In this document: positions 15,386 through 31,994 of the stretch, one piece after another | How the letters are laid out: every line of letters starts with the position of its first letter | Numbering within the stretch: the stretch's first letter is position 1 | Assembly (NCBI RefSeq): GCF_003289965.1 | Contig: NZ_QMBQ01000009.1 | Location: 62,001-126,000 of the forward strand | Origin: Mesorhizobium atlanticum | GTDB taxonomy: Bacteria > Pseudomonadota > Alphaproteobacteria > Rhizobiales > Rhizobiaceae | Direction: 5' to 3' | DNA length: 64,000 bases | Notes under the pieces: model-generated | Database searches by the model: none | What the model saw: only the letters and a program-made list of their open reading frames with translations | Told to the model about the DNA's origin: nothing | Translations under genes and position numbers: made by a program

Positions 15386-15402
15386 TTCCGCGCAGAGTCC
15401 GA

Positions 15403-15615: not shown

Positions 15616-15645
15616 GCATCAGAAGTCAGCGGATCAGGCTCCTTG

Positions 15646-15669
15646 AGTTTATCAACTATAATATGTATT
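15646..15669. promoter_or_regulatory. Candidate QseC operators, module 1
   Basis: Two small dyads in the qseC-qseM gap: AGTT-TATC-AACT (15646-15657) and AATA-TG-TATT (15660-15669). TATAAT (15657-15662) overlaps them on the plus strand. Weak by themselves; supported by the matching position of much clearer operators in module 2. Confidence 0.4.
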
Positions 15670-15736
15670 CCACACCAAGCGTCTCAATCCGATCGGGGAC
15701 GGGTTTGCTAGACCGCTCTTGGAGATAGGATCAGCG

Positions 15737-16003: not shown

Positions 16004-16027
16004 CGCATTTGCACGGTGCGAGACACA

Positions 16028-16606: not shown

Positions 16607-16832
16607 AAAGCCCCCAGCGCGACAGGTCGGCGGAGGAGGCAATCACGTCGAGCGACGGCCGCTGATCGACAAACCTGGCCTGTTCCAATGCGTGGGACAG
16701 ATCATGCCGGAAGGCCGAATTGCGCCGCAGGAATTCCCAGGCCCACCCGCGCCGCGTCAGCTCAAGGGTGTAGTCATAGGACCGCTCATCGCGCCAGTCC
16801 GGCCGATCGGCTTCAGGTTCCGGCAGGCTCAT
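16581..16832 (-). CDS. fseA: FseA, N-terminal part (DUF6499; msi172-like)
   Basis: 83 codons starting at an ATG that overlaps the traI1 stop (ATGA). The product begins MSLPEPEADRPDWRDERSYD and includes RRGWAWEFLRRNSAFRHDL, the DUF6499 signature. In zero frame it ends at TGA 16581, giving a short product. A +1 shift near 16610 joins it to the DUF2285 frame, giving about 267 residues. The operon order traR-traI1-fseA is that of the M. loti R7A island. Confidence 0.82.
   Translation of the reverse strand: MSLPEPEADRPDWRDERSYDYTLELTRRGWAWEFLRRNSAFRHDLSHALEQARFVDQRPSLDVIASSADLSRWGLLFRLLNAP
16604..16620 (-). other. Predicted +1 ribosomal frameshift site in fseA
   Basis: On the minus strand the zero frame reads TGG GGG CTT TTG TTT. 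A peptidyl-tRNA on CTT (16610-16608) can re-pair on TTT after a +1 slip, exactly as on CTT in prfB; the next codon is then TGT. A run of five G lies directly upstream and could act as a Shine-Dalgarno-like stimulator. The site is inferred from frame continuity and not from protein data. Confidence 0.6.
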
Positions 16833-17500
16833 CAGGCATCTCCGCCCGCAGCACGAAGCGAAGCCATCGTGCGACCTCGTGGATTGACGGGTGCCCACAG
16901 CACCGGACCGGCAAGACCGCCATTGCGGCGAACGGCATCGAGGCGCTCGTTTGAGACCTCGAGGTAGCCGGCCACTGCCCGGGTGGGGCCGATCGCGCGC
17001 GGCTCGCCGAGCCGCTCGAGCGGCCAATCGGCCCGGCGCAGGATGCGCTCCATGCGCAGGTCGGTGACGGTGACGATGCAGCTCAGACCTCGCCATAGCC
17101 CGAACTCGATCATGCCTGCGAAGAGCGCGTAGGTGCCGGCAGCGATGCCGCCTGCCCCCTTGGCGGCCGACGGCGACAGGTCGAGCGCGAAACGACTGCT
17201 TTCCCAGATTCTTGGATCCTGCGGCGCCGGCTGCCCGTCCAGCAGGGCCGGAAAGACATCGCCAAGCATGGTCGGCCCGGTCGAGGCAAGCAGGCGGATG
17301 CAGCCGTCGACGCTGCCAGTTGAGCCGCGCAGCAAAAGATAGTGGGGTTTCAGCGCGTCGAAGCGATCGATCTCGTAGCCGCCGCTGGTGCTGACGTCCC
17401 AGTCCAGCCGCTCCTTGAAGACACGATGGCGCAGACGGTGCATTTCGTGGAGCTCGTCGGCGAAGTCGCCGTACCATTCGGGAGCAATGAGCTGCAGCAT
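16832..17500 (-). CDS. traI1: TraI1 acyl-homoserine-lactone synthase
   Basis: 222 residues, LuxI family. Conserved N-terminal residues are visible: MHRLRHRVFKERLDW (Arg and Phe, Trp of the SAM pocket), YEIDRFDALKPHYLL (FD), GCIRLLAST, then WESSRFALD and VTDLRMERILRRADW. It makes an acyl-HSL from SAM and acyl-ACP; the chain length cannot be read from sequence. GGAGGCCGATAATC precedes the ATG. A tra box lies 63-80 bases upstream, so TraR autoinduces it. The stop overlaps the fseA start. Confidence 0.9.
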   Translation of the reverse strand: MLQLIAPEWYGDFADELHEMHRLRHRVFKERLDWDVSTSGGYEIDRFDALKPHYLLLRGSTGSVDGCIRLLASTGPTMLGDVFPALLDGQPAPQDPRIWESSRFALDLSPSAAKGAGGIAAGTYALFAGMIEFGLWRGLSCIVTVTDLRMERILRRADWPLERLGEPRAIGPTRAVAGYLEVSNERLDAVRRNGGLAGPVLWAPVNPRGRTMASLRAAGGDA

Positions 17501-17562
17501 GATTATCGGCCTCCAGGCGGGATTGACCCTGCCATTGGAGGCCGAGCGTCAGGCCGAAGCAG

Positions 17563-17580
17563 CCTGTACAGCGGTACAGG
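17563..17580 (-). promoter_or_regulatory. tra box (TraR binding site)
   Basis: Perfect 18-bp dyad CCTGTACAGCGGTACAGG (arms CCTGTAC / GTACAGG, 4-base centre), between the traR stop and the traI1 start. Size, symmetry and place fit a TraR-AHL operator upstream of traI1-fseA. Confidence 0.85.
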
Positions 17581-17587
17581 TGCCTGG

Positions 17588-18313
17588 TCAGCCGAGACCC
17601 GTTCTGGCGGCTGAGAATTGCGCCACGGCCTGCACGCGGGTGCGCAGCCCAAGCTTCTTCCTGGCGTTCTCCAGGTGAAAGGCGGCGGTGCGGCGCCTGA
17701 TGCCAATAATGCAGGCGATGTCGCGTGCGGATTTGCCCTGCGCCGCCCATTCCAGGCATTCATATTCGCGCGGCGTCAGTTGCACGCCGTTGACCACCCG
17801 GTCGGCCGAGAGCTTGCGGCGGACGCAGATATGAAAGCAGGTCGCCATGAAGCGAAATGCCTCTTGGTAGCGCTCGGTCACCCGCAGGAGGGCCGGATTG
17901 AGCTCGTCTGCGGCAAAGCTCATGGCAGCGACGTTGCCCCGCTTGTCGAGGATCGGGATCGTCAAACCGCAGCGGATGCCGAACACGGCCGCCTCGTCGA
18001 AGAGCTTGTGCTCGAAATCCGATAGCCCGGTTCGGCTGTAGTGAAGTCCCCACAGAAACGGGCATTGGCTGCCTTGCGCCCGCGCGATCACCGGATCGAT
18101 GGCGTGATAATGGTTGCTCAGGTAATGAGCGGTCCAGCGCGGCGGATAGTTCGAGATCAGCCTTGGCTTTCCCGGCGCTCGTGGCGGCAGGCACAGATAG
18201 GCGAATTGGACGAGATCGAATGCCGCGGCCGCACGCGCCATCGCGTCGCGGAAATCGGTCTCATCGACGCTTTCCGACAGCTGCTCCAGGAAGGTCTCGA
18301 AGACAAATTGCAT
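17588..18313 (-). CDS. traR: TraR quorum-sensing activator (LuxR family)
   Basis: 241 residues from the ATG at 18313. The N-terminal autoinducer-binding domain shows YLSNHYHAIDPVI (Tyr and Asp of the AHL pocket) and PFLW. The C-terminal LuxR HTH runs from LTPREYECLEWAAQGKSARD through HLENARKKLG. It binds AHL made by TraI1, then the tra box. In the R7A model its output is fseA, and QseM antagonises it. First gene of the traR-traI1-fseA unit. Confidence 0.9.
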   Translation of the reverse strand: MQFVFETFLEQLSESVDETDFRDAMARAAAAFDLVQFAYLCLPPRAPGKPRLISNYPPRWTAHYLSNHYHAIDPVIARAQGSQCPFLWGLHYSRTGLSDFEHKLFDEAAVFGIRCGLTIPILDKRGNVAAMSFAADELNPALLRVTERYQEAFRFMATCFHICVRRKLSADRVVNGVQLTPREYECLEWAAQGKSARDIACIIGIRRRTAAFHLENARKKLGLRTRVQAVAQFSAARTGLG

Positions 18314-18619
18314 GCCTAGTCGTCCCCAGACCCTTCCGCCGCGCGGCATTCTCCGAAGTCGGCGGGCAGCTTGCCAAGGTGGATGGCCAAGTTCGCCGGC
18401 ACAGAGCGTTACGCGATCGCCAGTGCGCCACCTTCGGGCTGGCATTCCAACGATCGGAGAATGGCGATTGAAGTCTCTTCAGCATCCAATTCGAACTGAC
18501 AGGCGATGACACCGGATCCGCGGCACGCGCCATTCAACAAGTCGTGCAGCCGCGACAGATTTTCAGCCGTTTCGCCATCCGGCTGATAGCGCTTGCGCCA
18601 CGCGACATTTGGCCGACGC

Positions 18620-18868
18620 TCAAGCCGAGGCTTCGCCAAGCATCTTGAGCATGGCCAGCCGGATCCTGACGAGCTTGCGCACCGGCGCGTGATAATTTTG
18701 AGGAGCAGCGTCCACCACAAACACCAAGGTCATCAGATCCAGCAAGAATTGATGGATCGCGTCGGCAGTCATGACCGACTCGAACTGATGCAGCATCGAG
18801 CGCGCCTCGTTGACCGATTCAGCGCCGGGCGCATCGATCAACGCTTCGAGCCTTTCGAAAATCTCCAA
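18620..18868 (-). CDS. Hypothetical 82-residue protein
   Basis: The frame starts with TTG at 18868 behind GGAGGATTC and encodes a helical protein (EIFERLEALIDAP..., MTADAIHQFLLDLMTLVFVV). I recognise no family. It lies upstream of traR on the same strand. The adjacent +1 frame continues with protein-like sequence to 18409 (see findings), so the gene may be longer than annotated or frameshifted. Confidence 0.45.
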   Translation of the reverse strand: MEIFERLEALIDAPGAESVNEARSMLHQFESVMTADAIHQFLLDLMTLVFVVDAAPQNYHAPVRKLVRIRLAMLKMLGEASA

Positions 18869-19357
18869 TTCGGCGAATCCTCCATTGCATCAATTGCCGT
18901 ACGGCAGATTGCTATTGGCGTTACGCGAAAAATACCGCGCCAAGAGACGGCTACGCCACGACCCACGGGGGACCAGTCCGGAAACAGACCTCACCCCCTC
19001 GATGGAAGACACAAAAACTTGCTCGCAAGCCATCGAAAAATCCGTTTGCTCGCGGAACAAGCGGTGGCCTGCCACTGCGTCCGCATCGCGGTGACAACTC
19101 AAAGCCAGCTTCCCTCATACGCCCTGGCCTGCCTCAGGCCTCCGCCTCACCGAGCCCGGCGATAGCGCCTCAGTCCGGGCGACGAGGAGGACGTCTGCGT
19201 CTGTGCGAGTCACTATGGCCACATGGATTTTTCCCGCGAACTCCTGCATCCGGATGTTTTCTCGGCGACCATCTGCGATCAGGCTCGTTGCCTTTGGAAA
19301 AGCTTGTCCTCAACAACGACCTCCCCGGCATCTGTACGCTTCTAACGATGGCATAGA
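18869..19357. other. Intergenic region, no gene seen
   Basis: About 490 bases between the hypothetical gene and the phosphodiesterase gene. No supported gene; both flanking genes are on the minus strand. Confidence 0.4.
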
Positions 19358-20887
19358 TCACGTTGTTGGCGTTGCCGACAAAGAGGCGATGCTCGCGGAC
19401 AAGGCATCACGGATATCGGCGGATTCAAGATAAACTGCTCCACCGACCCTCACACGCTGAAGGCGCTGCAGGTATTCGCCGGTGCCCGTTTCATAGACCG
19501 TCTTGATCGTCGGCGGCCCATCCCCAGGGTTCTGGATAAAAACTTCGGCGAGAACCCGGCCGGTCATCGTCGAGGGTCGCGAGATGCCAAGCAGATCGAG
19601 CACTGTCGGCGCGAAGTCGCAAACACCTGAGGGCACGTGTGAGACGACCCCGCTCTTGATCCGTGGACCAGCCAGGATGGCGACCGATGCCATCTCCTTG
19701 GCATGCAGCCCCCCGTGCACACCAAAGCCGATAGGGGAATCCGCGCTCCAACTGCGGCCTAAGAGACCAAAGCGATCGAGACCGTCATCCGCCCGGAACG
19801 AGAACAGGATGTCCGCCGAACGGGCATGATCGGCGAAGACCAGGTGGCGTGCGAAGCTTCCCGGAGCCACCCCCTCCGACTCGCTTCGGCCAGTGGTAAA
19901 AACCGGGCCGCACCAAGGCCGTTCGGTCATCGCCGCGACTGCGCGGCGGATAATCGGCTCAGATGGCTCGGCCAGGTATATCGCTCCGACCTGCCCCGGC
20001 ATCACGGTTGCGTCGATACCTCGCGCTGGCGCTTGGCCGCAACGCAGCCCGGTCGCCTCAAGCGTTTCGAGCAGATCGGCTCGTGCATGAACTGTGACAT
20101 GACCATGATCGGAGGCGGCAATCAAGTGCACGTTCTGGGAAACACCCTCGGCCTCCCACCAATCGAACACCCGGCCGAATTGGCTATCGATGAAGCGAAT
20201 TGCTTCCAGTGTCTGCGGCGCACCAGTTCCGGAATAGTGGGAGGAAATGTCGGGCTCGCCAAAGGACAGGATCGCGACATCGGGCCGGATCTGCGGCCAG
20301 ATCACCTCGAGGAATGCGGAGGTCAAGAAGGCTTGAGCCGCGAGATCGGCGGTGCCCTGGGGCGCCGGCGCCGGCGTGGGTCCTAGCAGAGCTTCGACCC
20401 GCTGGAGCATCTCGTACGAAGTTGCGACACGGGGAAAGTGACCCGACAGCGTCAGTTGGCCGAGCGTCCGAGCCTTGTGATTCAGCATGCGGGTCGCCCC
20501 GGCGGAGTTCGAGGCCAGGACCGAGTATGTCCTACTGTTTGCCGCGAGTATCTCACCGAGACAGGGCACGCCGAGGAAATGGCCGCCGCTTGCAGTGTCG
20601 AGTTCCTCGATAAGGCGGTCGTCGCTGGTATCGACATAGCGCGGCATCCCGGACAGCCGATCAAGATACTTGTTGCCGACGATGCCGTGACGATCCGGCG
20701 TCGTGCCGGTGACGAGGCTAGTCAAGGCAATCCGCGTCTCGCTTGGATAGACCGTGCGATGTCGCGACAGTGTCGCGCCACGGCGCTTGAGCCTTTCCAA
20801 GTTCGGGGTCAGCCATGGGCTGATGAGATCGGGCCGAAGCCCGTCAAACAGCACGATGAGAACGTGAGTCGGCATGAAGCGGCTCAT
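19358..20887 (-). CDS. Alkaline-phosphatase-superfamily phosphodiesterase (NPP/phosphonate-hydrolase-like)
   Basis: 509 residues from the ATG at 20887, which overlaps the permease stop (ATGA). Superfamily metal and nucleophile regions: LIVLFDGLRPDLI (metal Asp), YPSETRIALTSLVTG with HGIVGN (nucleophile Ser/Thr), FGEPDISSHYSG (Asp/His) and AASDHGH (Asp-His-x-His), with a C-terminal HGG. No signal peptide is seen, so it is likely cytoplasmic. Relatives hydrolyse phosphodiesters, nucleotides or phosphonoacetate. As the last gene of a transport operon it should cleave the imported substrate. Substrate not known. Confidence 0.75.
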   Translation of the reverse strand: MSRFMPTHVLIVLFDGLRPDLISPWLTPNLERLKRRGATLSRHRTVYPSETRIALTSLVTGTTPDRHGIVGNKYLDRLSGMPRYVDTSDDRLIEELDTASGGHFLGVPCLGEILAANSRTYSVLASNSAGATRMLNHKARTLGQLTLSGHFPRVATSYEMLQRVEALLGPTPAPAPQGTADLAAQAFLTSAFLEVIWPQIRPDVAILSFGEPDISSHYSGTGAPQTLEAIRFIDSQFGRVFDWWEAEGVSQNVHLIAASDHGHVTVHARADLLETLEATGLRCGQAPARGIDATVMPGQVGAIYLAEPSEPIIRRAVAAMTERPWCGPVFTTGRSESEGVAPGSFARHLVFADHARSADILFSFRADDGLDRFGLLGRSWSADSPIGFGVHGGLHAKEMASVAILAGPRIKSGVVSHVPSGVCDFAPTVLDLLGISRPSTMTGRVLAEVFIQNPGDGPPTIKTVYETGTGEYLQRLQRVRVGGAVYLESADIRDALSASIASLSATPTT

Positions 20888-21756
20888 TGGAGTGCCTTGT
20901 CCATTCGGTCGCGCAGACAATCGCCAATTAGGCAAACCGACATTGTGCTTAAGGCGATGACAAGCGATGGTGCGATGAGGATCCATGGCGCGCGGGTCAG
21001 ATAGTCGCGGCCGTAGCCGACCATGTTGCCGAGCGAGGTCTGCGGCGGTTGCACGCCAAGTCCGAGGAAACTCAGCCCGCATTCCAACAGGATCACCTCG
21101 GGAAAGGCGAGCGTCAGGGTGACGATTAGGCTGGAGGCAATGTTGGGTAGGACATGGCGAATATAAAGCCGCCAGGGTTCCGCACCGAGCTGGCGCGCGG
21201 CAATGGCGTAGCCTTGCGCCCCGGCACTAATGGCCAGTACGCGGGTGATGCGGGCATAGCGCTCCCAGCCATGTAGTCCGAGAAGGGCGATGAACAGGGC
21301 AAGCGAGTTGCCAAAGAAGGCCAGGACGGCGAGTGCCAGAATGAGGAAAGGCATGCTGGCCTGGAAGTCGACGAATGCGAGCACGATCTGCTCGGCCCAG
21401 CGGCGGAAATGGGCAGCGAGAAGGCCGAGCGCTATCCCGAGTACGGCGCCGAGACAGGTGGCCTCGAAGGCGATCAGCAGGCTCATGCGGATCGACGCGA
21501 TGAGACGCGAGAGTACGTCCCGGCCTAGTTCGTCTGTCCCTAACGGATGCAGGACCGTGCCACCCAATCCAGCGGGCGGGGACAACCGATGGTGCAGGTC
21601 CAGCGCAGCATAGTCGTAGGGGGCCAATACGTCTGCCAGCAGCGCGATGGCGAGCATTAACGCGAGCCAGACTACCGCCGCGACGACCAGCGGCGGGATC
21701 GCGGTCCGCGCCGCCGACCTCGGCGGCGCAGCGCCTTCATGTGAGGCATTCAGCAT
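20884..21756 (-). CDS. ABC transporter permease, DppC/OppC type
   Basis: 290 residues. One N-terminal helix, then a periplasmic loop with LGTDELGRDVLSRLI, the family hallmark of the second peptide-type permease, then the BPD_transp_1 domain with an EAA-like loop (GAQGYAIAARQLGAEPWRLY). It pairs with the DppB-type permease, whose stop it overlaps by 7 bases. The family carries peptides, opines, nickel and phosphodiester sugars, so the specificity is open. Confidence 0.85.
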   Translation of the reverse strand: MLNASHEGAAPPRSAARTAIPPLVVAAVVWLALMLAIALLADVLAPYDYAALDLHHRLSPPAGLGGTVLHPLGTDELGRDVLSRLIASIRMSLLIAFEATCLGAVLGIALGLLAAHFRRWAEQIVLAFVDFQASMPFLILALAVLAFFGNSLALFIALLGLHGWERYARITRVLAISAGAQGYAIAARQLGAEPWRLYIRHVLPNIASSLIVTLTLAFPEVILLECGLSFLGLGVQPPQTSLGNMVGYGRDYLTRAPWILIAPSLVIALSTMSVCLIGDCLRDRMDKALQ

Positions 21757-22694
21757 CTGCCGGCTCCCGCGCAGAGCGGTGCTGTGCGGATGCGTGGGTC
21801 GAGCACACCGTAAAGCAGATCGACGGTGACATTGGCACCAATCATGACAGCGGCGATGAGAAGCAGGATGCACTGCACCACGGCGAGATCGCGACTGACC
21901 ACTGAGACGACGAGCAATCGGCCGAGGCCCGGCCACGAGAACACATTCTCGACCAAGACCGCACCGGCGATTAGGTTTCCGACCATGAAGCCTACAATGG
22001 TGAGCGTGGGGATTGCCGCATTGGGCAATGCGTGAGACACGATCACCCTTCGCCAGGGCAGACCCCTGGCGCTGCCGGCTCGGATATAAGGCTGGCCGAG
22101 CACTTCGAGCATGGCGCCGCGGGCGAAGCGGGCCAGCACCGCGGCGCCGCCAACGCCCAGGGTGACGATCGGTAGGATGCAATGGCCCAGTCCCCCGATG
22201 CCGCCCGACGGCAGCCATCCGAGTCTGATCGAAAACACCAGAACCAGTAAAAGCCCGAAAACGAAGGAGGGAACAGTGAAGCCCGCGATCGCTGCGACCA
22301 TCACTGCCCGATCGGTTCGACTGTTGCGTTGAAGGGCCGCATAGACGCCTGCCGGAATCCCGACTGCTAGACTAAAGAGCAGCGCCGGCACGGTGAGTTC
22401 CAGCGTCGCGGGGATGCGCTCGGCGACGACGACAACGGCTTCGCGCCCGTCGCGCATCGACTGGCCGAGATCGCCGTGCAGGATAGCCAGCAGATATCGC
22501 GCGTACTGAATCCACAGCGGCGCATCCAGGCCCCAGGCCTTGCGGAAGGCGGCGATGGCCTCGGGTGGCGCATCGACAGACATAATCTCCAAGGCCGGAT
22601 CGCCCGACACACGCAGCACGATGAAGGCGAAGGTCACAACCAGCGCGATGGTGATGAGCGCGCGCAACAGGCGCACGGCGAAAAAGCGCAGCAT
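21750..22694 (-). CDS. ABC transporter permease, DppB/OppB type
   Basis: 314 residues and six helices. Family hallmarks: the N-terminal MLRFFAVRLLRALITIALVV, DLGQSMRDG, the EAA loop YIRAGSARGLPWRRVIVSHA and the C-terminal LLYGVLDPRIR. It forms the inner-membrane channel with the DppC-type permease. Its start overlaps the stop of the upstream ATPase gene by one base. Confidence 0.86.
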   Translation of the reverse strand: MLRFFAVRLLRALITIALVVTFAFIVLRVSGDPALEIMSVDAPPEAIAAFRKAWGLDAPLWIQYARYLLAILHGDLGQSMRDGREAVVVVAERIPATLELTVPALLFSLAVGIPAGVYAALQRNSRTDRAVMVAAIAGFTVPSFVFGLLLVLVFSIRLGWLPSGGIGGLGHCILPIVTLGVGGAAVLARFARGAMLEVLGQPYIRAGSARGLPWRRVIVSHALPNAAIPTLTIVGFMVGNLIAGAVLVENVFSWPGLGRLLVVSVVSRDLAVVQCILLLIAAVMIGANVTVDLLYGVLDPRIRTAPLCAGAGRC

Positions 22695-23692
22695 CAGGCA
22701 AGCCTCCTGATGGCCGGGCCCCCGGTGGTGCCATGGACCGCGTGGCAGGCGACGCTACGACTCTCTTTGACGGGTTCAAGCGCCGGCAATTGCAGCTTGC
22801 ATGCCGATCCTGCGATGGGGCAGCGCGGGTGGAAAGCACAGCCTTTCGGCCGGTTCATGGGATTTGGCGGATCGCCTGGGAGCAGAATCCGTTCGGTCCG
22901 GCGTCTTCTCGGGTGCGGAATCGCCGAGACGAGCGCCTGCGTATAGGGGTGCAACGGCGCGCCGAAGACCTCATCGGGTGGTCCCTCCTCGACGATGCGG
23001 CCGAGATACATTACCGCTACGCGATGGCTGACCTGCCGGACGGCCCGGAGATCGTGACTTATGAACAGCATCGCAGTGCCGAGTTCTGCCTGCAGGTCGG
23101 CCAGGAGGTTAATGATCTGAGCCTGGATCGACACGTCGAGGGCCGACATAGGCTCGTCGCAGACGATTAGGTCGGGCCGTGGCGCCAGTGCCCGGGCTAG
23201 CACGGCACGTTGGCGCTGCCCGCCCGAGAGTTCGTGCGGATACCGAGTCGCATGATCGGTGCCGAGGCCAACGGCCGAGAGCAGTGCAGCCACACGCTCT
23301 GCTCGCTCGGACGGCGAACCGAAACGGTGGATGTCGAGCGGCTCGCGGATCTGTTCGCGGATGGTCAAGTGCCGGTCGAGCGCGGCCAGCGGATCCTGGA
23401 ACACCATCTGCATGCGCGCGCGGGAGGATCGCCAGCCCGGCTCGTGGGGCATCGGCAACACCGTGCCGTCGAAAGAGATTGCGCCGGCGTCCGCGGGCTC
23501 GAGGCCGATCAGGAGACGTCCAGTGGTCGATTTCCCGCAGCCGGATTCGCCGACCAGGGCAAGGGTTTCGCCGCGACGGATCGTCAGGGAGACGTCGTCG
23601 ACCGCATGGACGGTGGATTTTCGGCCGAAGAAGCCATGGCGCACGCCATAGCGACGAACCAGCCGTTCCGCCTTGAGGAGTGGGACGGTCAT
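22694..23692 (-). CDS. ABC transporter ATPase, DppF/OppF type
   Basis: 332 residues from the ATG at 23692 (which overlaps the upstream ATPase stop, ATGA). Walker A GESGCGKST, signature LSGGQRQR, Walker B LIVCDEP and the H-loop ISHD are all present. The C-terminal oligopeptide-transporter domain includes GCAFHPRCP. It energises the dipeptide-type importer encoded by the same operon. Confidence 0.86.
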   Translation of the reverse strand: MTVPLLKAERLVRRYGVRHGFFGRKSTVHAVDDVSLTIRRGETLALVGESGCGKSTTGRLLIGLEPADAGAISFDGTVLPMPHEPGWRSSRARMQMVFQDPLAALDRHLTIREQIREPLDIHRFGSPSERAERVAALLSAVGLGTDHATRYPHELSGGQRQRAVLARALAPRPDLIVCDEPMSALDVSIQAQIINLLADLQAELGTAMLFISHDLRAVRQVSHRVAVMYLGRIVEEGPPDEVFGAPLHPYTQALVSAIPHPRRRRTERILLPGDPPNPMNRPKGCAFHPRCPIAGSACKLQLPALEPVKESRSVACHAVHGTTGGPAIRRLA

Positions 23693-24696
23693 GCGAGTAC
23701 GACCTCCTTGTGTTCGGGCGCGCGGGCGTGTGCAAAGGACGAATGAAAGCATGCCGCCCGACGCCCAGGATGTTCCGCATCGACGGAAGCCAGTGCCGGT
23801 TCGGCGGCATCGCAGGCCGAGGTGTGACGTCTACAGCGGGGCCCAAAGGGACAACCTGGCGGCAGGCGGACGAGATCGGGGACCGAGCCCGGAATGGCGG
23901 TCACGCGACGTCTCGGGCCATCGACGTTAGGCAAAGCCGCGAGCAGAGCCGCAGTATAAGGATGGATCGGCCGCTCCAGCAGATCGTCTACCGGAGCCTC
24001 CTCGACGACGCGGCCGGCATACATGACCGCGACGCGCGAACAGGTTTCGGCGATAATGCCAAGATCGTGCGAGATGATCACGAGTCCCATGCCTGTCTCG
24101 GTCCGAACCTCGCGGAGCAGATCGAGAATCTGGGCCTGTATGGTGACGTCCAATGCGGTGGTCGGCTCGTCGGCGACGAGCAAGTCGGGTTCGCCGGCAA
24201 GGGCCGCAGCGATCATCACGCGCTGATTCTGGCCCCCCGACAGCTCGTGCGGGTACGCGTCGAGCCGCCGTCCCGCATCGGATATGCCGACCGCATCGAA
24301 CAAGCGCCTCGCCTCGGCTCGCGCCGCACGGCGGTCCATGCCACGGTGGAGCCTCAGCACTTCCGAGACCTGATCGCCGACCTTGTGTACTGGATTGAGT
24401 GAGCTCGCCGGATCCTGGAAGATCATAGCGATGCGCGCCCCGCGCACCCGGTCCAGGAATGGCGCGGGCATATGCAGAATATCCTCGCCTTGGAGCCGAA
24501 CTCTTCCGGCGACCCGGGCCTTTCGCCCCAGCAGCCCAAGAGCGGCAAGCCATGTCACCGATTTGCCGGATCCGCTTTCACCGACGATGCCAACCGCTTC
24601 ACCGCGCGCGACCATGAGATTCACGCCGCGCAAAACCGAAATGCCGCCGATCGAGACGCAGAGATCCGTCAATTCCAGGAACGGGCGTGTACTCAT
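23689..24696 (-). CDS. ABC transporter ATPase, DppD/OppD type
   Basis: 335 residues. Walker [10 protein letters not shown], signature LSGGQNQRV, Walker B LLVADEP, then the C-terminal oligo_HPY domain with [11 protein letters not shown]. It partners the DppF-type ATPase. The start overlaps the end of the DeoR gene (ATGA), so regulator and transporter are one transcript. Confidence 0.86.
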
Positions 24697-25553
24697 AGCG
24701 CCTGTCCGGACTGCGATCGCGTCGAACTGTTGTGACCGGTCGGGAGCAGAACCCTTACCCCTGCCTCCTCCAGCGCGATTGCCATATCAGGAGGTGCGGC
24801 CCTATCCGTAGCGAGAACTGCGACCCGGCTGAGCGGCAGCACCACATAGGCGTCCGATCGGTTGAACTTGGTGGCATCCGCCACGACGACGAGGCACCGC
24901 GCCCGCTCTGTGAGCTTTGCACCGATTGCGGCATGCCATTCGGACGGGCCGAGGAAGCCATGCACAGCATCAACGCTGCTCGCGCCGCAGACCGCAAGAT
25001 CGAATACCTGGTGGTCCAGCGCGTTAAGTATGTCGGGGCCAATCAGCGTTCGGGTGGTCGGCTTGAGCACGCCCCCGAGCAGCGTCACCTTAAAGCGGAC
25101 CTCCACGGCAAGTCGTGTGGCGATGTCGATCATGTTGGTCGTGACCGACAACGCCGGGCCTTGCCCTGCGAGCGCGTCGGCGAGCAGCAGCATGGTGGAG
25201 CTGCCGCCAAGGAAGATGTTCATTCCTTCCTGAAAAAGCGGCAGCGCGGCCTCGGCTGCCGCCATTTTCGCAGAGCGGTCGAGCTCGAGCCGCTCGGCAA
25301 CCGGACGGCGAGCAGTGAGGTCGACCGGCGCCATGGGCGCCACGCCGCCGTGAACTCGGCGGAGCAGTCCGGCCTGATCGAGCGCGCGGATATCTCTGCG
25401 GATACTCTCCTGCGAAACACCAAAGCGCTCTGCGAGGTCCCCGACAGCGATGATGTCGCCGTTGGAGATGAGCGTCAGGATCTGCTGCTGTCGCGCCGCC
25501 CCAAGTCTGGCACTGCCACGCGGCTGCGGCGCGTCGCGCTCTTGGTCCACCAT
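24693..25553 (-). CDS. DeoR/GlpR-family transcriptional regulator
   Basis: 286 residues from the ATG at 25553, four bases after the binding-protein stop. N-terminal DeoR HTH: RQQQILTLISNGDIIAVGDL with SQESIRRDIRALDQAGLLRR. The C-terminal sugar-phosphate sensor contains FLGGSSTM, TTN and the LGG repeats of the family. DeoR repressors usually respond to phosphorylated sugars or polyols, which fits a phosphodiester importer. It may bind the phased A-tract repeats upstream of the operon (27192-27227). Confidence 0.82.
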   Translation of the reverse strand: MVDQERDAPQPRGSARLGAARQQQILTLISNGDIIAVGDLAERFGVSQESIRRDIRALDQAGLLRRVHGGVAPMAPVDLTARRPVAERLELDRSAKMAAAEAALPLFQEGMNIFLGGSSTMLLLADALAGQGPALSVTTNMIDIATRLAVEVRFKVTLLGGVLKPTTRTLIGPDILNALDHQVFDLAVCGASSVDAVHGFLGPSEWHAAIGAKLTERARCLVVVADATKFNRSDAYVVLPLSRVAVLATDRAAPPDMAIALEEAGVRVLLPTGHNSSTRSQSGQAL

Positions 25554-25557
25554 GACC

Positions 25558-27132
25558 TCAGCTCCGCGCGAAAGCTTGATTTGATGGCCCGAAATTGAGA
25601 TCCAGCATCTGCCCGGGAATCCACGGCACGTCACGGCGCTTGCCGTAGAATTGACCCGAGGCATGCAGCACCACACACGGCGGATCGTCCCGGTCGATGA
25701 TCGTCAGCATGCGGCGAATGATCTTTCGGCGCTCTTCGACATCGACTACGTCCTGCAATCTGGCGCCGAGATGGAAATACTCCTCATTTGACCAGATTCC
25801 GACCTGCTTCGGCAGGGTCCCGTTCGGCCCGAATTCACGCCAAGCATGACCGAGGTGGTCGAGGAAGATCGCTGTCGATGAACTGTCGTAGATCGCGTTG
25901 ACGGGCTTGCGCTGGATTTGTGAGAAGTTCTCCATCATCTGGATCTCGACATTGAGGCCCGCCGTCCGCCACATCTCGACCATCGCCTGCGCGCCGGAGA
26001 CTTGGTTTGTGTAGTAGTTGTTGAGCAAACGGTATGTGATTGGTTCGCCTTTGTAGCCGGCATCCTTGATGAGTTGGCGCGCCAAGTCGGGATCGTAAGC
26101 AAGCGCCGGGAAGTCCTCGATATAACCCGAGCCGAAGCTCGATAACTGGAAGCCGTTCGGTACCGGTACTCGGTTCTCCCACAGGGCTTCGACGAAGAGC
26201 TTCCGATCGATCGCGACGCTGAGCGCGCGGCGGAGCCGGGGGTCTTTGAATATCGGGGCGGTTTGGTCGATAGCGAGGTACCGAACGTTTTGGACCGCAC
26301 CGCCGGCGATCTCGAGTTCAGGCCGCGCGGCGATGTCTCCGAACTGATCGGGCGGCACATCGGTTATGATGTCAAGCTCACCGGCGAGCAGGCCGTTCAC
26401 GCGTGCGGCAAGCTCAGGGATGATACGGTACTCGATGGCACCGAAGGGAGGTTTGCCTCCCCAATAAGCATCGTGCGGAGCGAGAACGATATTGACGTCC
26501 AGGTTCTGACTGACGAGCCGGTAGGGCCCGGTGCCGACCGGCGCAGCGCTCCACTTGTCCCAGGAGCCGGCGGCCTCGAACGCGCGCTTGCCGACAATCT
26601 CCGAAGCCCAGGCCGCCAGGCGTTGCTCGAGAAGGGCATCGTTGCCTTTGGCGCGGATCACTATGGTGTAAGGATCAACGACTTCAACACGCTCGACGCG
26701 ATCAAGTGTCTGCATGGCGATCGACCTGCCGGAGCGGCCCGGTCCTAGAAGATGATCGGGGCTGAAGGAGAAGGCGACATCGTGCGCCGTGAACGGACTG
26801 CCGTCATGAAAGGTTACCCCCTTACGCAACGAGAGGCGGAGCGCCCCACCGTCGAGCCGTTCCCAGCGCTCTGCAAGGGCTGGTTTGAGCGCCATGCCCT
26901 TGCCGTGGTCGAAGGCGATCAGGGTGTCGAAAATCTGTGGTACGACCCGCCGCGTAGCAGTGTGGTTGAAGAGCGCCGGCTCGACCGCCGGCGGAAAGCC
27001 CGACATGCCAATCGTGAGCCGAGGGTGCGTCCCAGCCTGGGCAGCCCAAGCCCTCGACGCCATCGCAGCAAGCAATCCGCTCGCCAAGGCGCCAGCGATT
27101 GTCTGCCGTCTTGTCATTTGAAGCTCAGCCAT
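25558..27132 (-). CDS. Extracellular solute-binding protein, family 5, Tat-exported
   Basis: 524 residues. Twin-Arg signal (TRRQTIAGALASGLLAAMAS, residues 7-31), then a full SBP_bac_5 domain with LAERWERLDGG...FHDGSPFTAHDVAF. This is the periplasmic receptor of the DppBCDF-type importer and the first gene of the operon SBP-deoR-ATPase-ATPase-permease-permease-phosphodiesterase. Family 5 proteins bind peptides but also opines such as agrocinopine. Tat export is a little unusual but known. Substrate not assignable from sequence. Confidence 0.85.
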   Translation of the reverse strand: MAELQMTRRQTIAGALASGLLAAMASRAWAAQAGTHPRLTIGMSGFPPAVEPALFNHTATRRVVPQIFDTLIAFDHGKGMALKPALAERWERLDGGALRLSLRKGVTFHDGSPFTAHDVAFSFSPDHLLGPGRSGRSIAMQTLDRVERVEVVDPYTIVIRAKGNDALLEQRLAAWASEIVGKRAFEAAGSWDKWSAAPVGTGPYRLVSQNLDVNIVLAPHDAYWGGKPPFGAIEYRIIPELAARVNGLLAGELDIITDVPPDQFGDIAARPELEIAGGAVQNVRYLAIDQTAPIFKDPRLRRALSVAIDRKLFVEALWENRVPVPNGFQLSSFGSGYIEDFPALAYDPDLARQLIKDAGYKGEPITYRLLNNYYTNQVSGAQAMVEMWRTAGLNVEIQMMENFSQIQRKPVNAIYDSSSTAIFLDHLGHAWREFGPNGTLPKQVGIWSNEEYFHLGARLQDVVDVEERRKIIRRMLTIIDRDDPPCVVLHASGQFYGKRRDVPWIPGQMLDLNFGPSNQAFARS

Positions 27133-27227: not shown

Positions 27228-27375
27228 ACCACCCTTGTCCGGTGCGACTGGCGCTTCCGCGTTGCCTTCGCTAAGGCTGAAGCCGATCCAGGACGTCCCG
27301 GCCGCTTCTTCGGGTATAGGTTGCCATGCAAAATGCATTCGTTTTGAATGCGACTGCCATAATCAGGAGAACGCG

Positions 27376-28173
27376 ATGACTGTCCCCATCAAACAGGCGG
27401 CAGAGCAGGAAAGATTTGGCGATTTTACGCACGTGTCACAGAATTATAGATACAGGCCTTATTACTCCTATCCTGTATTCGAATACATAGCCTCTCGCAT
27501 CCGGTTCGCTGCGTTGCCTCTCGTGGCGGCGGACATCGGCGCTGGAAGTGGCAAGCTGGTCGAGATGCTTGCTCGCATGGGCTTTTCCGGCTTTGCCGTC
27601 GAGCCGAACCGGGAAATGCTTAAACACGGTCGGGAAGAGTGTTCATATCTTCGGGGTTTTTCGTGGCTGGAGGCGACGGCTGAAAAAACAGGACTCGATG
27701 ATCGATCAGTCAGCTGGGTCTGCATGGGTTCCATGTTTCACTGGACGATCAGCGACGCCGCACTGGCTGAGTGCCATCGAATTCTTCGCCCAGGAGGATT
27801 TCTTTCGGTCGTCTATGACCTGACGGATATACGATGTGACCCGTTCCAGACAAAGGTGGAAAACCTGATACGGAAAAGGGCACCTGGCGTTAAGCGGGCA
27901 CGCGAGCCTATCGAAGCGATTATGCCGGAACTTGAGACAATCCTGAGCGAAGCGCCAGGCTTCAAAGAATGCGTTTTTGTCGAGGCTGCGCATGTCGAGC
28001 TGATGGACGTAGAGCGGTATATGCGGGTTTGGGATACCGCCCATGATCTCCGAGGGCAGCTATCAATGTCTGAATGGAATGGCTTGAAAGCTTCCATAGT
28101 AGACCTAGCGAGGAGGATGGACGAAATTCCGGCAAGATACCGAACCAGCGCCTGGACGGTTCAACGTGTCTAG
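27376..28173 (+). CDS. Class I SAM-dependent methyltransferase
   Basis: 265 residues from the ATG at 27376 (AGGAGAACGCG upstream; a longer in-frame ORF is not supported). SAM motif I is AADIGAGSGKLVEML (about 56-70), the acidic residue is in AVEPNREM, and motif post-I/II contains SVSWVCMGSMFHW. The N-terminus FTHVSQNYRYRPYYS resembles small-molecule methyltransferases of the UbiE/Tam group. It is divergent from the transport operon and convergent with the phosphonate operon, so it may methylate that pathway's product (inference). Confidence 0.78.
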   Translation: MTVPIKQAAEQERFGDFTHVSQNYRYRPYYSYPVFEYIASRIRFAALPLVAADIGAGSGKLVEMLARMGFSGFAVEPNREMLKHGREECSYLRGFSWLEATAEKTGLDDRSVSWVCMGSMFHWTISDAALAECHRILRPGGFLSVVYDLTDIRCDPFQTKVENLIRKRAPGVKRAREPIEAIMPELETILSEAPGFKECVFVEAAHVELMDVERYMRVWDTAHDLRGQLSMSEWNGLKASIVDLARRMDEIPARYRTSAWTVQRV

Positions 28174-28410: not shown

Positions 28411-29010
28411 TCAACAATAACCAAGCAGAACTGCTGACGCGCCAAGGCTAAAAAGCACAATCATGGTATACATCACCTGATTTGGAGCAGGGATCCGGAT
28501 CGGAGCGACATGCAATGCGCCAAGGATCGAAAAACTGATGTTGGTGGTCGTGGCGAGATTGTCCCCGAGCTGACCTCTTCCAAGCAACAACACCGCCAGA
28601 AGCGGGACGTCGTATGACAATGGAATTCCCAAGAATTTTCCGTCCTTGGAAAGGCCGAAATTATTGAAATAGCTGAGGCGAATTACACCTCCCAATAGCA
28701 ATACGGCGCTAACGATAGCCGACATTAAAGAGGCCTTGCTAATCTGGCTGATACAGATCGCGGGAAAGACTGAACCGTAAATTATATCGGCAAATCCATC
28801 CAAGGACTTGCCCATCTTCGCCATTTCCGGAGGACGACTTCTTAGACGCGCGGCAACTATGCCGTCGAGGTGGTCGGCCAACATGGCCCACAGAGCAACA
28901 CCAACTGCCGGCGGTGTGTATCCGGACAAAGCCAAGTGTATTGCTATAGCTGAAAAAGCCACCCCCAGGGCAGTGATCGCGTTCGCGGGATCAACAAGAT
29001 AGCGCAACAT
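28411..29010 (-). CDS. CDP-alcohol phosphatidyltransferase
   Basis: 199 residues, about six membrane helices. A variant CDP-alcohol motif is seen at about residues 46-72: DHLDGIVAAR, eleven residues, GKSLDGFAD (canonical DG-x2-AR-x8-G-x3-D-x3-D). All Asp residues are kept but the spacing is longer. It should transfer a CMP-activated phospho or phosphono group to an alcohol. AGGAGCCAGCCC precedes the ATG. It follows the cytidylyltransferase by ten bases. The pairing suggests a CMP-phosphonate donor. Confidence 0.78.
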   Translation of the reverse strand: MLRYLVDPANAITALGVAFSAIAIHLALSGYTPPAVGVALWAMLADHLDGIVAARLRSRPPEMAKMGKSLDGFADIIYGSVFPAICISQISKASLMSAIVSAVLLLGGVIRLSYFNNFGLSKDGKFLGIPLSYDVPLLAVLLLGRGQLGDNLATTTNISFSILGALHVAPIRIPAPNQVMYTMIVLFSLGASAVLLGYC

Positions 29011-29020
29011 GGGCTGGCTC

Positions 29021-29818
29021 CTATTCCGCCGTGACGACAGACGCGGGCCTAGACGCGGTCGGACCGAAGATACTTTCGGCGATACACAAATCTTCCGTGC
29101 TGTCGATTTCGTATAACTTCAGATCGTCGCAACGCGCGGCCGCTAGTTGAAGGCCACCGGTGCCGATCAAGTGGCCAAAGAGCTCTTCGGTGTATGCGTT
29201 TGTTGCGCCGGAGCCGATTAGATCGTCGAGCGCCGGGATGATGATCGTCCGAAGTTCAGAGCCAGAGAACCGGATGAGGTTCATGGTCTTGAAGAGGACT
29301 GGACCGCCTGACACGAGGTTTGCCCCGGTCTGTTTCAAGAGGACCTCGGCTATGAGACCGCTGGGCGACAAAATGACCGCGGAGCCCTCCATGGAAGCGG
29401 TGAACGGCGCGACGGCCGCGACATTTGCAGCGGCTACCTCTATCAGACAGCGAAGCGTGTCCTCCTCGAAGAAGACGTCGCCTTCGAGAAGATAGCAGTC
29501 TCCGCAGCGGAGTGCGTCACGGGCGAGCCATAGCGAATAGGCACTGCCGGTGCGGTCGAAAACGGTTGACTCGACATACGTGATCTCGACGCCGTAGAGG
29601 CGGCTGCCGCATGCGTATTGAATAGCATCCTTGCGGTAGCCGACGACTATCGTGACTTCTTCCACGCCGATTGCTGCGAGGTTTCGCAGCGCATTGTGGA
29701 GGATCGATGTTCCGTTGACCTCGATCAGGGGCTTCGGCCGCAGATCGGTCAGCGGGCGCAGGCGTGAGCCCATGCCGGCGGCGAGAATGACGGCTTTCTT
29801 GGGCGCGGCGACAGGCAT
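29021..29818 (-). CDS. CTP-dependent nucleotidyltransferase (PntC/LicC-like cytidylyltransferase)
   Basis: 265 residues from the ATG at 29818 (AAAGGGGATCGAC upstream; an ATG at 29845 overlaps the aminotransferase stop). NTP-transferase fold: KAVILAAGMGSRLRPLT, then PKPLIEVNG (catalytic Lys) and LLEGDVFFE (metal Asp). The closest pattern is phosphocholine and 2-aminoethylphosphonate cytidylyltransferases. In a PEP-mutase operon it most likely makes CMP-phosphonate. It lies between aminotransferase and CDP-alcohol transferase. Confidence 0.8.
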   Translation of the reverse strand: MPVAAPKKAVILAAGMGSRLRPLTDLRPKPLIEVNGTSILHNALRNLAAIGVEEVTIVVGYRKDAIQYACGSRLYGVEITYVESTVFDRTGSAYSLWLARDALRCGDCYLLEGDVFFEEDTLRCLIEVAAANVAAVAPFTASMEGSAVILSPSGLIAEVLLKQTGANLVSGGPVLFKTMNLIRFSGSELRTIIIPALDDLIGSGATNAYTEELFGHLIGTGGLQLAAARCDDLKLYEIDSTEDLCIAESIFGPTASRPASVVTAE

Positions 29819-29841
29819 GTCGATCCCCTTTCTTCGTGGTG

Positions 29842-31026
29842 TCATTTCCAGCTGTTAAGGACATCAACCAGCCGGGTTAGCCCGGTTTCGAGTTTTTCGG
29901 GAGGAGTTCCATAGGACAGGCGCAGACCGAGAGGGTCGCCGAAGGCAGTGCCCGATACGGCTGCGACGCCGGCGTCGGCAAGGAGCGAGGTCACAACGTC
30001 ATCGGCGGTCGCCGGGCCATTCTTGAACGCCGGTCCCAACCCGGAAAGATCGAGATAGAAATATATGCCGCCCTGCGCCCGAGGCGCGGGGATCCGCCTC
30101 AGTGAGGAGAGGATGCTGAGACCGAGCTGTCTGGAACTTGCCAGCTGCAAGCCCAGCTTTTTCTCATGGCGACCGTCTCCCCGCTCAAGGTGAGCCAGCA
30201 CCGCATGTTGGGCAATCACATTGGGATTTGAGGTGGTATGGGACTGCAAGGCCCTGACGGCATCAACAACTTCCTTTGGAGCCGCCAGATAGCCGATCCG
30301 CCAGCCCGTCAGGGCCAGCGACTTGCTGAATCCGTTGACGATGATTGTTCGAGACCTGACTTCGGGCACAGCCGAGACGATCGGGTAATGGGCGTGCTGG
30401 CCGTAGACGAAGTTGGCATAGCATTCATCGAAAATAACCCACAGGTCGCGGTTGATCGCCAGCCGGGCGATCGCCGTCAGCGCATCAAAATCGTAGACCG
30501 CACCCGACGGGTTGGCGGGCGTATTGACGACGATCGCGCGGGTCTTTTCGGTCAATGCCGCAGCGATGTCCTGGATGCGCGGGACGTACGCGTTGGAACG
30601 CGTATCGACGAAAACCGGCTTGCCGCCTGCAATTACGACCTGGGCCGAGAACGTCGTCCAGTAGGGTGCCGGGATAATCACCTCATCACCTGGATTCAGC
30701 AGCACCATGGTCGCATTGAAGAGCGCTTGCTTGGCGCCTGTCGTTGCCGCGATCTCGTCGGCTTTCCAGGTTTGGCCCGTATCGAAGGAGACCTTGCGCG
30801 CCAGCGCCTCGCGCAATTCCATCATGCCGAGCGTATCGGTGTAACGATTGACGCCGTTGTTGATAGCATTGATCGCGCCTTCGCGAATGGTCGGGGCGAG
30901 CTCGCTCCAGATCTCGCCAGCGGTCAGATCGATCACCTCCTGGTGGCTGTGGGCTGCCTGTCTTGCGGCGGCCCGCGCCGCGGCGGTTCGAGATGAACCG
31001 AACGAGCTTGTGCGTCGAGCAAGCAT
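29842..31026 (-). CDS. Class I/II PLP aminotransferase (aspartate-aminotransferase-like)
   Basis: 394 residues, fold type I. Visible: YTDTLGMMELREALA, TGAKQALFNA, NTPANPSGAVYD, FDECYANFVY (PLP Asp and Tyr) and NGFSKSLALTGWRIGY with Lys235 as the Schiff-base residue. AAGGAGGCGCCG precedes the ATG. Next to PEP mutase, and with no phosphonopyruvate decarboxylase in the window, it could convert phosphonopyruvate to phosphonoalanine. That assignment is inference; it could instead act on phosphonoacetaldehyde if a decarboxylase is encoded elsewhere. Confidence 0.8.
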   Translation of the reverse strand: MLARRTSSFGSSRTAAARAAARQAAHSHQEVIDLTAGEIWSELAPTIREGAINAINNGVNRYTDTLGMMELREALARKVSFDTGQTWKADEIAATTGAKQALFNATMVLLNPGDEVIIPAPYWTTFSAQVVIAGGKPVFVDTRSNAYVPRIQDIAAALTEKTRAIVVNTPANPSGAVYDFDALTAIARLAINRDLWVIFDECYANFVYGQHAHYPIVSAVPEVRSRTIIVNGFSKSLALTGWRIGYLAAPKEVVDAVRALQSHTTSNPNVIAQHAVLAHLERGDGRHEKKLGLQLASSRQLGLSILSSLRRIPAPRAQGGIYFYLDLSGLGPAFKNGPATADDVVTSLLADAGVAAVSGTAFGDPLGLRLSYGTPPEKLETGLTRLVDVLNSWK

Positions 31027-31064
31027 CGGCGCCTCCTTGCCTTGATTTGGGAAGTCAGGCCCGT

Positions 31065-31994
31065 TTATCGGGCACCGCTCGGCAGATATTTTTGTTCGGC
31101 CGCGGAGAGCTCTTGATATTTGAGCAGATCAAACAGGTCTTCGAGTGTGGCAACATCGCGTTCGATCCCGGCGGTGCTCTCTTCGCGGATGATGCGGTCG
31201 CAAACCTGGCGCATGGCGGAGATCGCGGCACGCATATTATGGTTCGCCCAAATCACGGTTGAGATTTGTGCCGCTCGGTATTGCGCGACCGGTGCGCGGT
31301 AATATTTCGTCGGGACGATCACTACCGGGAGGCGGTTCCTCCAGGCGCGGCTAAAGGCGAGAATTTCCGCTGCGTCGGGTTTGCGCGAATGGATCAGGAT
31401 CGCGTCGGCACCGGCGTCAGCATAAGCATGGGCCCGCGTCAGCGCCTCATCCTGACCATGCCCCGCGATGAGGGCCTCGATCCGCGCGACCACAACGAAT
31501 TCCGGATCTGGCACGTGGTCCCGAATAGCGTGCAGACGGCCGCAGAACTCACCGATCTCAGCGAGTGGGTGCCGATCCCCGACAAAGGAGTTCTTTTTTG
31601 GGAAGCTCTTATCCTCGATGCAGACACCGGCCGCCCCGCGTTGGTGCAGCTTGCGCGCGAACAGACGCGCGTTGTTGAAATTCCCGAATCCGCTGTCGCC
31701 GTCGACAAGAACAGGTATTTGCGTGGCCTCAACGATCCTGTGCACAGCATCGACGATCTCAGTCCACGAGGCTTCGTTCGCATCGCGATAGCCCAGGCAG
31801 GACGAGATCGACAGTCCTGACGCCCACAGGCCTCGAAAGCCGGCGGCCTCCGCGACCGACGCCGACAGGGCGTCGTGAGCTTCCATAAGGAAGGCGATTT
31901 CATTCGAACATACCAGACTCCGCAACGTCGATGCGGCGGATGCTTGACGAGTTCCGTTGTTAGAGTTTGCGGTTATGGCCCCGCCTCCTACCAT
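31065..31994 (-). CDS. pepM: Phosphoenolpyruvate mutase (phosphonate biosynthesis)
   Basis: 309 residues, isocitrate lyase/PEP mutase superfamily. The diagnostic PEP mutase loop EDKSFPKKNS is at about residues 127-136, with LWASGLSISSCLGYRDANE (55-74) and LVDGDSGFG (97-104) forming the Mg/PEP site. It converts PEP to phosphonopyruvate, the first step of nearly all C-P bond biosynthesis. First gene of a four-gene minus-strand operon. The start is uncertain: GGTAGGAGGCGG lies just inside the ATG at 31994 and is well spaced for an ATA codon in frame at residue 7. Confidence 0.85.
   Translation of the reverse strand: MVGGGAITANSNNGTRQASAASTLRSLVCSNEIAFLMEAHDALSASVAEAAGFRGLWASGLSISSCLGYRDANEASWTEIVDAVHRIVEATQIPVLVDGDSGFGNFNNARLFARKLHQRGAAGVCIEDKSFPKKNSFVGDRHPLAEIGEFCGRLHAIRDHVPDPEFVVVARIEALIAGHGQDEALTRAHAYADAGADAILIHSRKPDAAEILAFSRAWRNRLPVVIVPTKYYRAPVAQYRAAQISTVIWANHNMRAAISAMRQVCDRIIREESTAGIERDVATLEDLFDLLKYQELSAAEQKYLPSGAR

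Follow-up and report, generated by a model that had tools for sequence, protein, structure and literature searches.

Mesorhizobium atlanticum carries, in a 64,000-nucleotide stretch of contig NZ_QMBQ01000009.1 (the window, whose positions serve as coordinates below), a likely operon of four phosphonate-synthesis genes headed by pepM and, downstream on the same strand, the genes of an AccA-type ATP-binding cassette (ABC) importer and a phosphodiesterase. We see an even chance that the locus encodes an opine- or rhizopine-like phosphonoalanine ester that is made, exported, re-imported and degraded. Such an ester is the best explanation of the locus because the AccA-type importer is linked to the synthesis genes and because nodule expression has been reported for M. 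loti. The novelty lies in the adjoining importer and phosphodiesterase, which the initial annotation of the operon missed, as it did the published M. loti expression.

In the proposed pathway, phosphoenolpyruvate (PEP) mutase (PepM) would make phosphonopyruvate, which an enzyme of the aspartate aminotransferase (AspAT) type would draw to phosphonoalanine. A LicC-like cytidylyltransferase would then form CMP-phosphonoalanine, and a CDP-alcohol transferase would put the phosphonate on an alcohol, most likely a sugar or polyol, to give a soluble phosphonate ester. After export, the ester would be recaptured by the adjacent importer and cut by an NPP-type phosphodiesterase. The phosphonoalanine could be used via an aminotransferase and phosphonopyruvate hydrolase in many relatives, or via C-P lyase in others.

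The likely phosphonate operon and a candidate pull on PEP mutase

All four reported open frames are present on the minus strand and apparently intact. The pepM product (31065..31994; 309 aa; motif EDKSFPKKNS) scores 346.1 bits in a profile search against TIGR02320 (PEP mutase, converting PEP to phosphonopyruvate; cut-off 319.55) and 214.6 bits against TIGR02321 (phosphonopyruvate hydrolase), under the cut-off of 374.4; its closest relative in the PDB is the PEP mutase 1m1b (E 5e-97). These scores and the NS motif rule out a phosphonopyruvate hydrolase. The second gene (29842..31026; 394 aa) encodes a pyridoxal phosphate (PLP)-dependent aminotransferase of the AspAT superfamily (Aminotran_1_2, 207.7 bits, above the Pfam cut-off), in which K235, presumably the PLP lysine, is invariant in nine aligned sequences. 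An extra pocket arginine (SRT) was considered as a phosphonate reader and discarded, as it occurs only in the window and in L034, the other aligned cassette copies having SGT or PGT. The third gene (29021..29845; 274 aa) encodes a LicC/PntC-like cytidylyltransferase that exceeds the Pfam cut-off for NTP_transferase; its best PDB match is the CTP:phosphocholine cytidylyltransferase 1jyk (LicC; E 2.6e-14), and its homologs are annotated as "phosphocholine cytidylyltransferase family". The last gene (28411..29010; 199 aa) encodes a CDP-alcohol phosphatidyltransferase (PF01066, CDP-OH_P_transf, 30.6 bits, above the Pfam cut-off). Its aspartate set, D46, D49, D71 and D75, is invariant in 27/27 aligned copies, while the canonical AR arginine is displaced in these sequences. 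Frames, coordinates and family profiles thus confirm the four consecutive same-strand genes of the initial annotation, with its EDKSFPKKNS PEP mutase. Because the intergenic gaps are 38, -4 and 10 bases, the four genes likely form one operon.

PEP is reported to be favored >500-fold over phosphonopyruvate (PMC12871164). A genome-wide profile search for phosphonopyruvate decarboxylase (Ppd) found no match over the cut-off in the source genome (best score 34.1 bits against 312.5), which upholds the absence of Ppd noted initially, spares that reading the refutation a ppd elsewhere in the genome could have brought, and leads us to reject Ppd as the pull there; among 150 genomes, source included, two exceed the cut-off (G129 and G078). 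With no Ppd, and with hydrolase-like genes in relatives (see below), aminotransfer to phosphonoalanine is the best-supported candidate for the pull. The step has biochemical precedent because the Streptomyces AspAT-family transaminase PnaA is described as pulling the PepM product to phosphonoalanine (PMC11867202); it is therefore not the novelty that it had first appeared to be.

The Streptomyces phosphonoalamide pathway (PnaD and PnaA), like the window, combines PepM with an AspAT-superfamily transaminase and lacks Ppd, the two transaminases being likened by family and description, not by the PnaA sequence. That pathway goes on to peptides through ATP-grasp ligases, whereas the window has a cytidylyltransferase and a CDP-alcohol transferase instead. 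Phosphonoalanine was reportedly described as a common branch point by Li and Horsman in 2022. LicC-like enzymes that make the CMP derivative of 2-aminoethylphosphonate (AEP) are known, and in Pnt/PntC tailoring, as in the window, a LicC-like cytidylyltransferase lies beside PepM with the same logic of CMP activation (Rice et al. 2019, PMC6697681). The PntC examples in that report activate AEP made by Ppd and AEP transaminase (AEPT), whereas the window operon would act on phosphonoalanine; the source-genome search, which covered Ppd, yielded nothing above the cut-off. A Bradyrhizobium in which pepM is accompanied by ppd, making for another route, has also been reported (PMC10708946).

A class I S-adenosylmethionine methyltransferase gene (27235..28173, plus strand; Methyltransf_11, 55.3 bits) converges with the operon and is a possible tailoring gene; methyltransferase genes also come after the cassette in some relatives. 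We infer a symbiosis-island location from a fixN-type oxidase gene (COX1 family) that adjoins the locus and from 10 relatives in which 17-37 kb separate pepM and nifH; nifH of the source draft genome is on a different contig from pepM. The window also has, at 48644-56178, nadA, nadC, a gene for a FAD-binding, aspartate-oxidase-like protein and aminotransferase genes of classes I and III; nad and bio genes flank pepM on M. japonicum pMLa as well. An omptin-family outer-membrane protease gene lies at 8557-9651.

An AccA-type importer linked to pepM

Downstream of the operon, all on the minus strand, are genes for a periplasmic binding protein of AccA type (25558..27132; AccA E 1.9e-91), a DeoR-family regulator (24693..25676; DeoRC 117.6 bits), two Opp-type ABC ATPases (23689..24696 and 22694..23752; each with ABC_tran and oligo_HPY), two ABC permeases (21750..22694 and 20884..22218; each BPD_transp_1) and an NPP-type phosphodiesterase of the alkaline phosphatase superfamily (19358..21082; Phosphodiest PF01663, 122.7 bits). 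The true starts of the regulator and of the second permease probably lie inside their frames. The seven best matches to the binding protein among solved structures (E 1.9e-91 to 3.5e-88) are AccA, the agrocinopine receptor, six of them by name and one (8cke) unnamed; the first solved chain outside the AccA group matches at E 2.2e-32. In a tree of 57 binding proteins (65 before removal of identical C-termini), three AccA proteins (pAtK84b), 28 cassette-linked proteins and one from Roseibium form one clade (32/32; support 1.0). The outgroup of 25 comprises 22 family-5 binding proteins of the source genome and three others, and the proteins of L037, L070 and L118, which are not AccA-type, were placed in it.

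AccA contacts the phosphate of its ligands through N54, Y375, Y376 and S419, according to El Sahili et al. (PMC4526662). Y373, Y374 and S418 of the window protein correspond to the last three. Across the 28 linked proteins, one of which (L072) is on a draft contig without pepM, Y376 is kept in 28/28, S419 in 27/27 (one protein being incomplete) and Y375 in 24, with Trp in the other four. The 22 source-genome paralogs, whose distance makes alignment less reliable and the counts less sure, have Y376 in three, S419 in three, Y375 in one and all three together in 0/22. Of the further AccA residues that bind pyranose-2-phosphate, the window protein keeps the equivalents of W178, N284 and E434, but not Y145, M372 or T430; E510 aligns to Leu near the alignment end, and the alignment gave no position for E504. 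The sugar-reading residues differ among the linked proteins. This pattern would be expected of a phospho(no)ester site that stays conserved while its alcohol partners change.

Like the window, the agrocinopine acc locus of Agrobacterium (AccR-AccABCDEFG) has a binding protein of the AccA clade, most of whose phosphate contacts recur in the window, as well as Opp-type ABC genes, a regulator of the DeoR family and a phosphodiesterase. The acc locus differs in that the window has phosphonate synthesis genes adjacent, an NPP rather than an AccF phosphodiesterase, and changes at N54 and in the sugar contacts. The DeoR gene belongs to the same family as AccR and is 30% identical to AccR of pAtK84b, a value without a control against other DeoR proteins, and orthology is not claimed. 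An AccF-like identity for the phosphodiesterase was rejected, as AccF was not among the kept matches in 80 cassette loci. Two short aligned stretches place the Thr and Asp/His of the window enzyme at catalytic positions of NPP 2gsn, and the enzyme is a candidate for cleaving the imported ester.

A LuxR/TraR-type gene and a PF20109 regulator, presumably FseA-like, lie at 16581-18445 on the same strand, the traR-like gene 912 bases (0.9 kb) downstream of the phosphodiesterase gene. A link to island transfer is possible because in Agrobacterium an opine regulator is reported to control quorum sensing and Ti transfer (PMC4526662). From the adjacency across this gap comes the idea that the importer regulator might control the traR-like gene.

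Linkage of importer and pepM extends to relatives. Among 149 related genomes, the importer protein (E up to 1e-90) occurs in 20, pepM (identity 69% or more) in 25 and both in 17 (Fisher 1.1e-13, a p-value that overstates independence, as the genomes are related and the collections overlap). The pepM of G129 (55% identity) and weaker matches are not counted among the 25. In 14 of the dual-positive genomes the two genes share one contig (13 within 13 kb, one at 41 kb), and in three they are on separate draft contigs. Gene order and orientation of importer and cassette vary between loci.

Relatives also carry candidate degradation genes. A second pepM-like gene, 12-23 kb from pepM, resembles phosphonopyruvate hydrolase: of four tested against TIGR02321, two pass (377.2 and 407.1 bits) and two just miss (367.3 and 369.9). 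This gene occurs in 15/25 pepM relatives against 2/124 others, and an aminotransferase adjoins it in 12/18 fetched stretches, as also in M. loti 582, an arrangement that fits phosphonoalanine degradation. Because phosphonopyruvate hydrolase acts on phosphonopyruvate, these genes independently support phosphonoalanine as the phosphonate. In having a phosphonopyruvate hydrolase-like gene, often with an adjoining aminotransferase, the relatives resemble Variovorax Pal2, whose PalA/PalB genes are reportedly a phosphonoalanine degradation cluster; unlike in Pal2, the hydrolase gene of the relatives here stands beside synthesis and importer genes, and it is absent from the source genome. Where relatives have the hydrolase, S. 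meliloti AK83 and S. chiapasense instead show phnF and a gene of the C-P lyase pathway close to the importer, and the source genome has phnJ, elsewhere than the locus. C-P lyase genes have been reported in association with rhizobia (PMC7363004). Hydrolase-like genes without a pepM of the window type (genomes G021 and G148; stretches L069 and L070) may mark consumer-only genotypes.

Nodule expression in M. loti and an apparently modular spread of the cassette

In M. loti R7A nodules, fusions to pepM (msi327), aatA (msi326) and asnB (msi323) are reported to give 827, 2456 and 862 Miller units, values that stay below 20 in broth and at 8-22 when nifA2 is mutated; insertion mutants in all three genes are described as fully effective in symbiosis (PMC3538637). 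We equate msi327 with the cassette pepM by gene names and order, not by sequence. Contig L097, which we take to bear the R7A island, has the order pepM, aminotransferase, cytidylyltransferase, CDP-alcohol transferase, methyltransferase, asnB. A -24/-12 box (one mismatch allowed) with a NifA site 81-89 bases upstream was found in 6/81 non-redundant pepM upstream regions (111 before removal of near-identical ones), whereas neither the opposite strand nor any of 40 shuffles yielded one. nifH is present in 21/25 pepM relatives versus 47/124 others (Fisher 4e-5). RNA-seq of NGR234 bacteroids reportedly shows induction of phosphonate transporters (PMC3732241).

The cassette proves common in rhizobia, which undercuts the novelty first claimed: one scan of genome contigs found 121 relatives encoding the cytidylyltransferase, and the 80 kept are all of the rhizobial order by record title. 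Within ~10 kb of these 80 genes, where many stretches end, lie pepM in 78, the CDP-alcohol transferase in 64, the aminotransferase in 52, an NPP-type phosphodiesterase in 23, an importer-type binding protein in 20 (L118 not AccA-type; L108 and L147 not classified) and phosphonopyruvate hydrolase in eight. Of 13 annotated plasmid stretches fetched around pepM or transferase matches, eight, from Mesorhizobium, Rhizobium and Sinorhizobium, contain all four genes, some with insertions or one gene moved, which excludes a chance reading of the set. Some relatives have genes for MFS or DMT transporters close to the cassette.

The cassette appears to be modular. Six loci (L084, L130, L139, L154, L156 and L161) have the closest pepM and aminotransferase, 93-97% identical to the window, with a cytidylyltransferase just 70-73% and a CDP-alcohol transferase just 39-41% identical, which we read as a head module joined to different tail modules. 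L037 holds the first three genes and a different transferase: at 14976-21074 of this Agrobacterium pAt2 stretch, pepM, aminotransferase and cytidylyltransferase are followed by a 400-aa CDP-alcohol transferase and diaminopropionate-synthesis-like genes, presumably SbnA/SbnB-like. L040 retains pepM and an aminotransferase remnant, and L038 and L164 have the CDP-alcohol transferase without pepM. The Roseibium plasmid stretch L164 encodes, at 13977-16387, a CDP-alcohol transferase, an NTP transferase and a GHMP kinase, with AccA-type importer and phosphodiesterase genes adjoining; pepM is absent from the fetched stretch, and a GHMP kinase in its place is expected if a phosphate ester replaces the phosphonate. 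After removal of near-identical loci (24 to 12), binding-protein distance correlates with CDP-alcohol transferase distance (Mantel r 0.60; partial 0.53, p 0.0015, pepM controlled), whereas the partial correlation with pepM is -0.25. These values are suggestive only of importer divergence that follows the transferase, not pepM.

Weighing the opine reading against its alternatives

Several findings tell against a phosphonoalanine-ester opine. Its product, acceptor alcohol and exporter, like every chemical step and the role as a private nutrient, are hypothetical. In the binding protein, AccA N54 is replaced by Thr and the sugar contacts differ, and the phosphodiesterase is of the NPP rather than the AccF type. 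An importer-type protein is missing within ~10 kb in 60 of the 80 loci, and 28 show no aminotransferase in those surroundings; in Bradyrhizobium L101 and L157 none lies between pepM and the cytidylyltransferase, and their PepM reads EDS for EDK. EDS occurs in 43 of the 111 pepM copies of the upstream scan, relatives included, against 47 with EDK, 20 with EDT and one unread. A. vitis pAvCG78a (L168) has a pepM adjoining a citrate synthase-like gene, and G078 has Ppd over the cut-off 5 kb from pepM, yet the importer protein 11 kb away. A genome search found no phosphonopyruvate hydrolase like that of the relatives in the source genome, and the one hydrolase-side aminotransferase tested matches an aspartate transaminase model best, though with a score under its cut-off. 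As for expression, Sullivan et al. report no NifA/RpoN promoter for the R7A pepM, aatA and asnB genes (PMC3538637), four pepM genomes show no nifH, and the motif search found no NifA-type promoter upstream of the window pepM, so that one is rejected for the window operon.

Three of these cases deserve description in their own right. G078 (C126 59427-78810; binding protein AccA-like) counts against a simple picture because Ppd is near pepM and no further cassette gene was found in the fetched 20-kb stretch (L046). On pAvCG78a (L168 15076-17150), the 71% identical pepM precedes a citrate/2-methylcitrate synthase gene, another phosphonate route than that of the cassette. EDS/EDT copies with an intact FPKxNS include L101 8551-9564, L157 8717-9688 and L097 7827-8735, and a pepM survey filtered on EDKxxxxxNS would overlook them.

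The initial annotation had the phosphonate activated with CMP and placed on a lipid, polyol or glycan, and the last two enzymes fit activation and transfer. Phosphonoalanine placed on diacylglycerol or a surface glycan, in the manner of phosphatidylserine and with the importer an unrelated neighbor, is an unlikely reading that nonetheless keeps some weight. The transferase has its catalytic aspartates; its predicted structure (pLDDT 94.6) has phosphatidylserine synthase 7pow as best fold match (E 3e-7), which does not settle the acceptor; and its best NCBIfam match is TIGR00473 of the phosphatidylserine synthase family (59.4 bits, below the cut-off of 107), while a sequence search of solved structures gave no match. 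Bacterial phosphonate capacity is also thought to be mostly surface-directed (PMC6697681). A membrane product, however, would have no need for the AccA-type importer, phosphodiesterase and hydrolase, yet importer and hydrolase co-occur with pepM; importer, phosphodiesterase and M. loti expression point away from a membrane lipid or glycan and toward a small compound that is taken up again. The next fold family, IPCT-DIPPS (4mnd), is a weak match below significance (E 0.04) and makes a soluble diester. The initial chemistry thus stands in large part, although it is not new in kind.

A secreted inhibitor, a Trojan-horse ester like agrocin 84 that enters competitors via AccA-type importers and carries a warhead built by the asparagine synthase-like and formyltransferase genes beside some cassettes, seems improbable to us. 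AccA does import agrocin 84 (PMC4526662), tailoring genes differ between loci, and PEP to phosphonoalanine has been called the shortest pathway to a bioactive phosphonate (PMC11867202), but importer, phosphodiesterase and the relatives' degradation genes beside the synthesis genes would feed the toxin to its producer, and the window operon has no obvious warhead genes. We think it quite improbable that the importer serves for true agrocinopines, sugar phosphodiesters of plants or bacteria, and that its travel with the cassette is coincidental. Islands and plasmids gather cargo, 8/25 pepM relatives lack the importer at E 1e-90, 3/20 importer genomes lack pepM, and the G078 importer is near a pepM without the cassette; against this, linkage survives rearranged orders and both orientations, and importer divergence follows the transferase (n=12). 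Finally, PepM and the aminotransferase could run in reverse, salvaging imported phosphonoalanine to PEP, as the equilibrium toward PEP and the adjacent importer would allow. We regard this as highly improbable, because it would give neither the cytidylyltransferase nor the CDP-alcohol transferase anything to do and because a distinct hydrolase-like gene for degradation is kept in many relatives.

The phosphonoalanine-ester opine would resemble the rhizopines (L-3-O-methyl-scyllo-inosamine; mos/moc), whose synthesis is also linked to putative uptake and use genes on symbiotic replicons; its chemistry would be a phosphonate rather than an inosamine. Few rhizopines are known, and most strains have none. 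The pepM and aatA genes of M. loti share the rhizopine traits of being nodule-expressed, nifA2-dependent and dispensable (PMC3538637), and S. meliloti M270 is reported to have agrocinopine genes (PMC5994717). Among the 15-20 best-ranked papers per query (of up to 3,824 matches) in the open-license literature, we found no link of phosphonate synthesis with opines or rhizopines.

More tentatively, and with doubts outweighing confidence, we suggest that the window may represent a large, overlooked and modular family of phospho(no)ester opines on rhizobial symbiosis islands and agrobacterial plasmids. Each would combine a fixed phosphonoalanine head (pepM and aminotransferase; a GHMP kinase in Roseibium), a variable activation and transfer module and a co-diversifying AccA-type importer. 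Its products would be a lineage-private currency of phosphorus and nitrogen in nodules, edible just to kin with the matching importer and possibly tied to island transfer via the traR-like gene.

M. loti R7A offers a ready genetic test, as pepM, aatA and asnB insertion mutants are already published (PMC3538637). If the opine reading is true, a phosphonate opine across Mesorhizobium, Bradyrhizobium, Sinorhizobium, Rhizobium and Agrobacterium would explain nodule-specific genes without a fixation phenotype. It would join phosphonate biosynthesis to the opine concept, as a private nutrient like the crown-gall opines, and would provide private goods for direct tests of kin selection and cheating in nodules.

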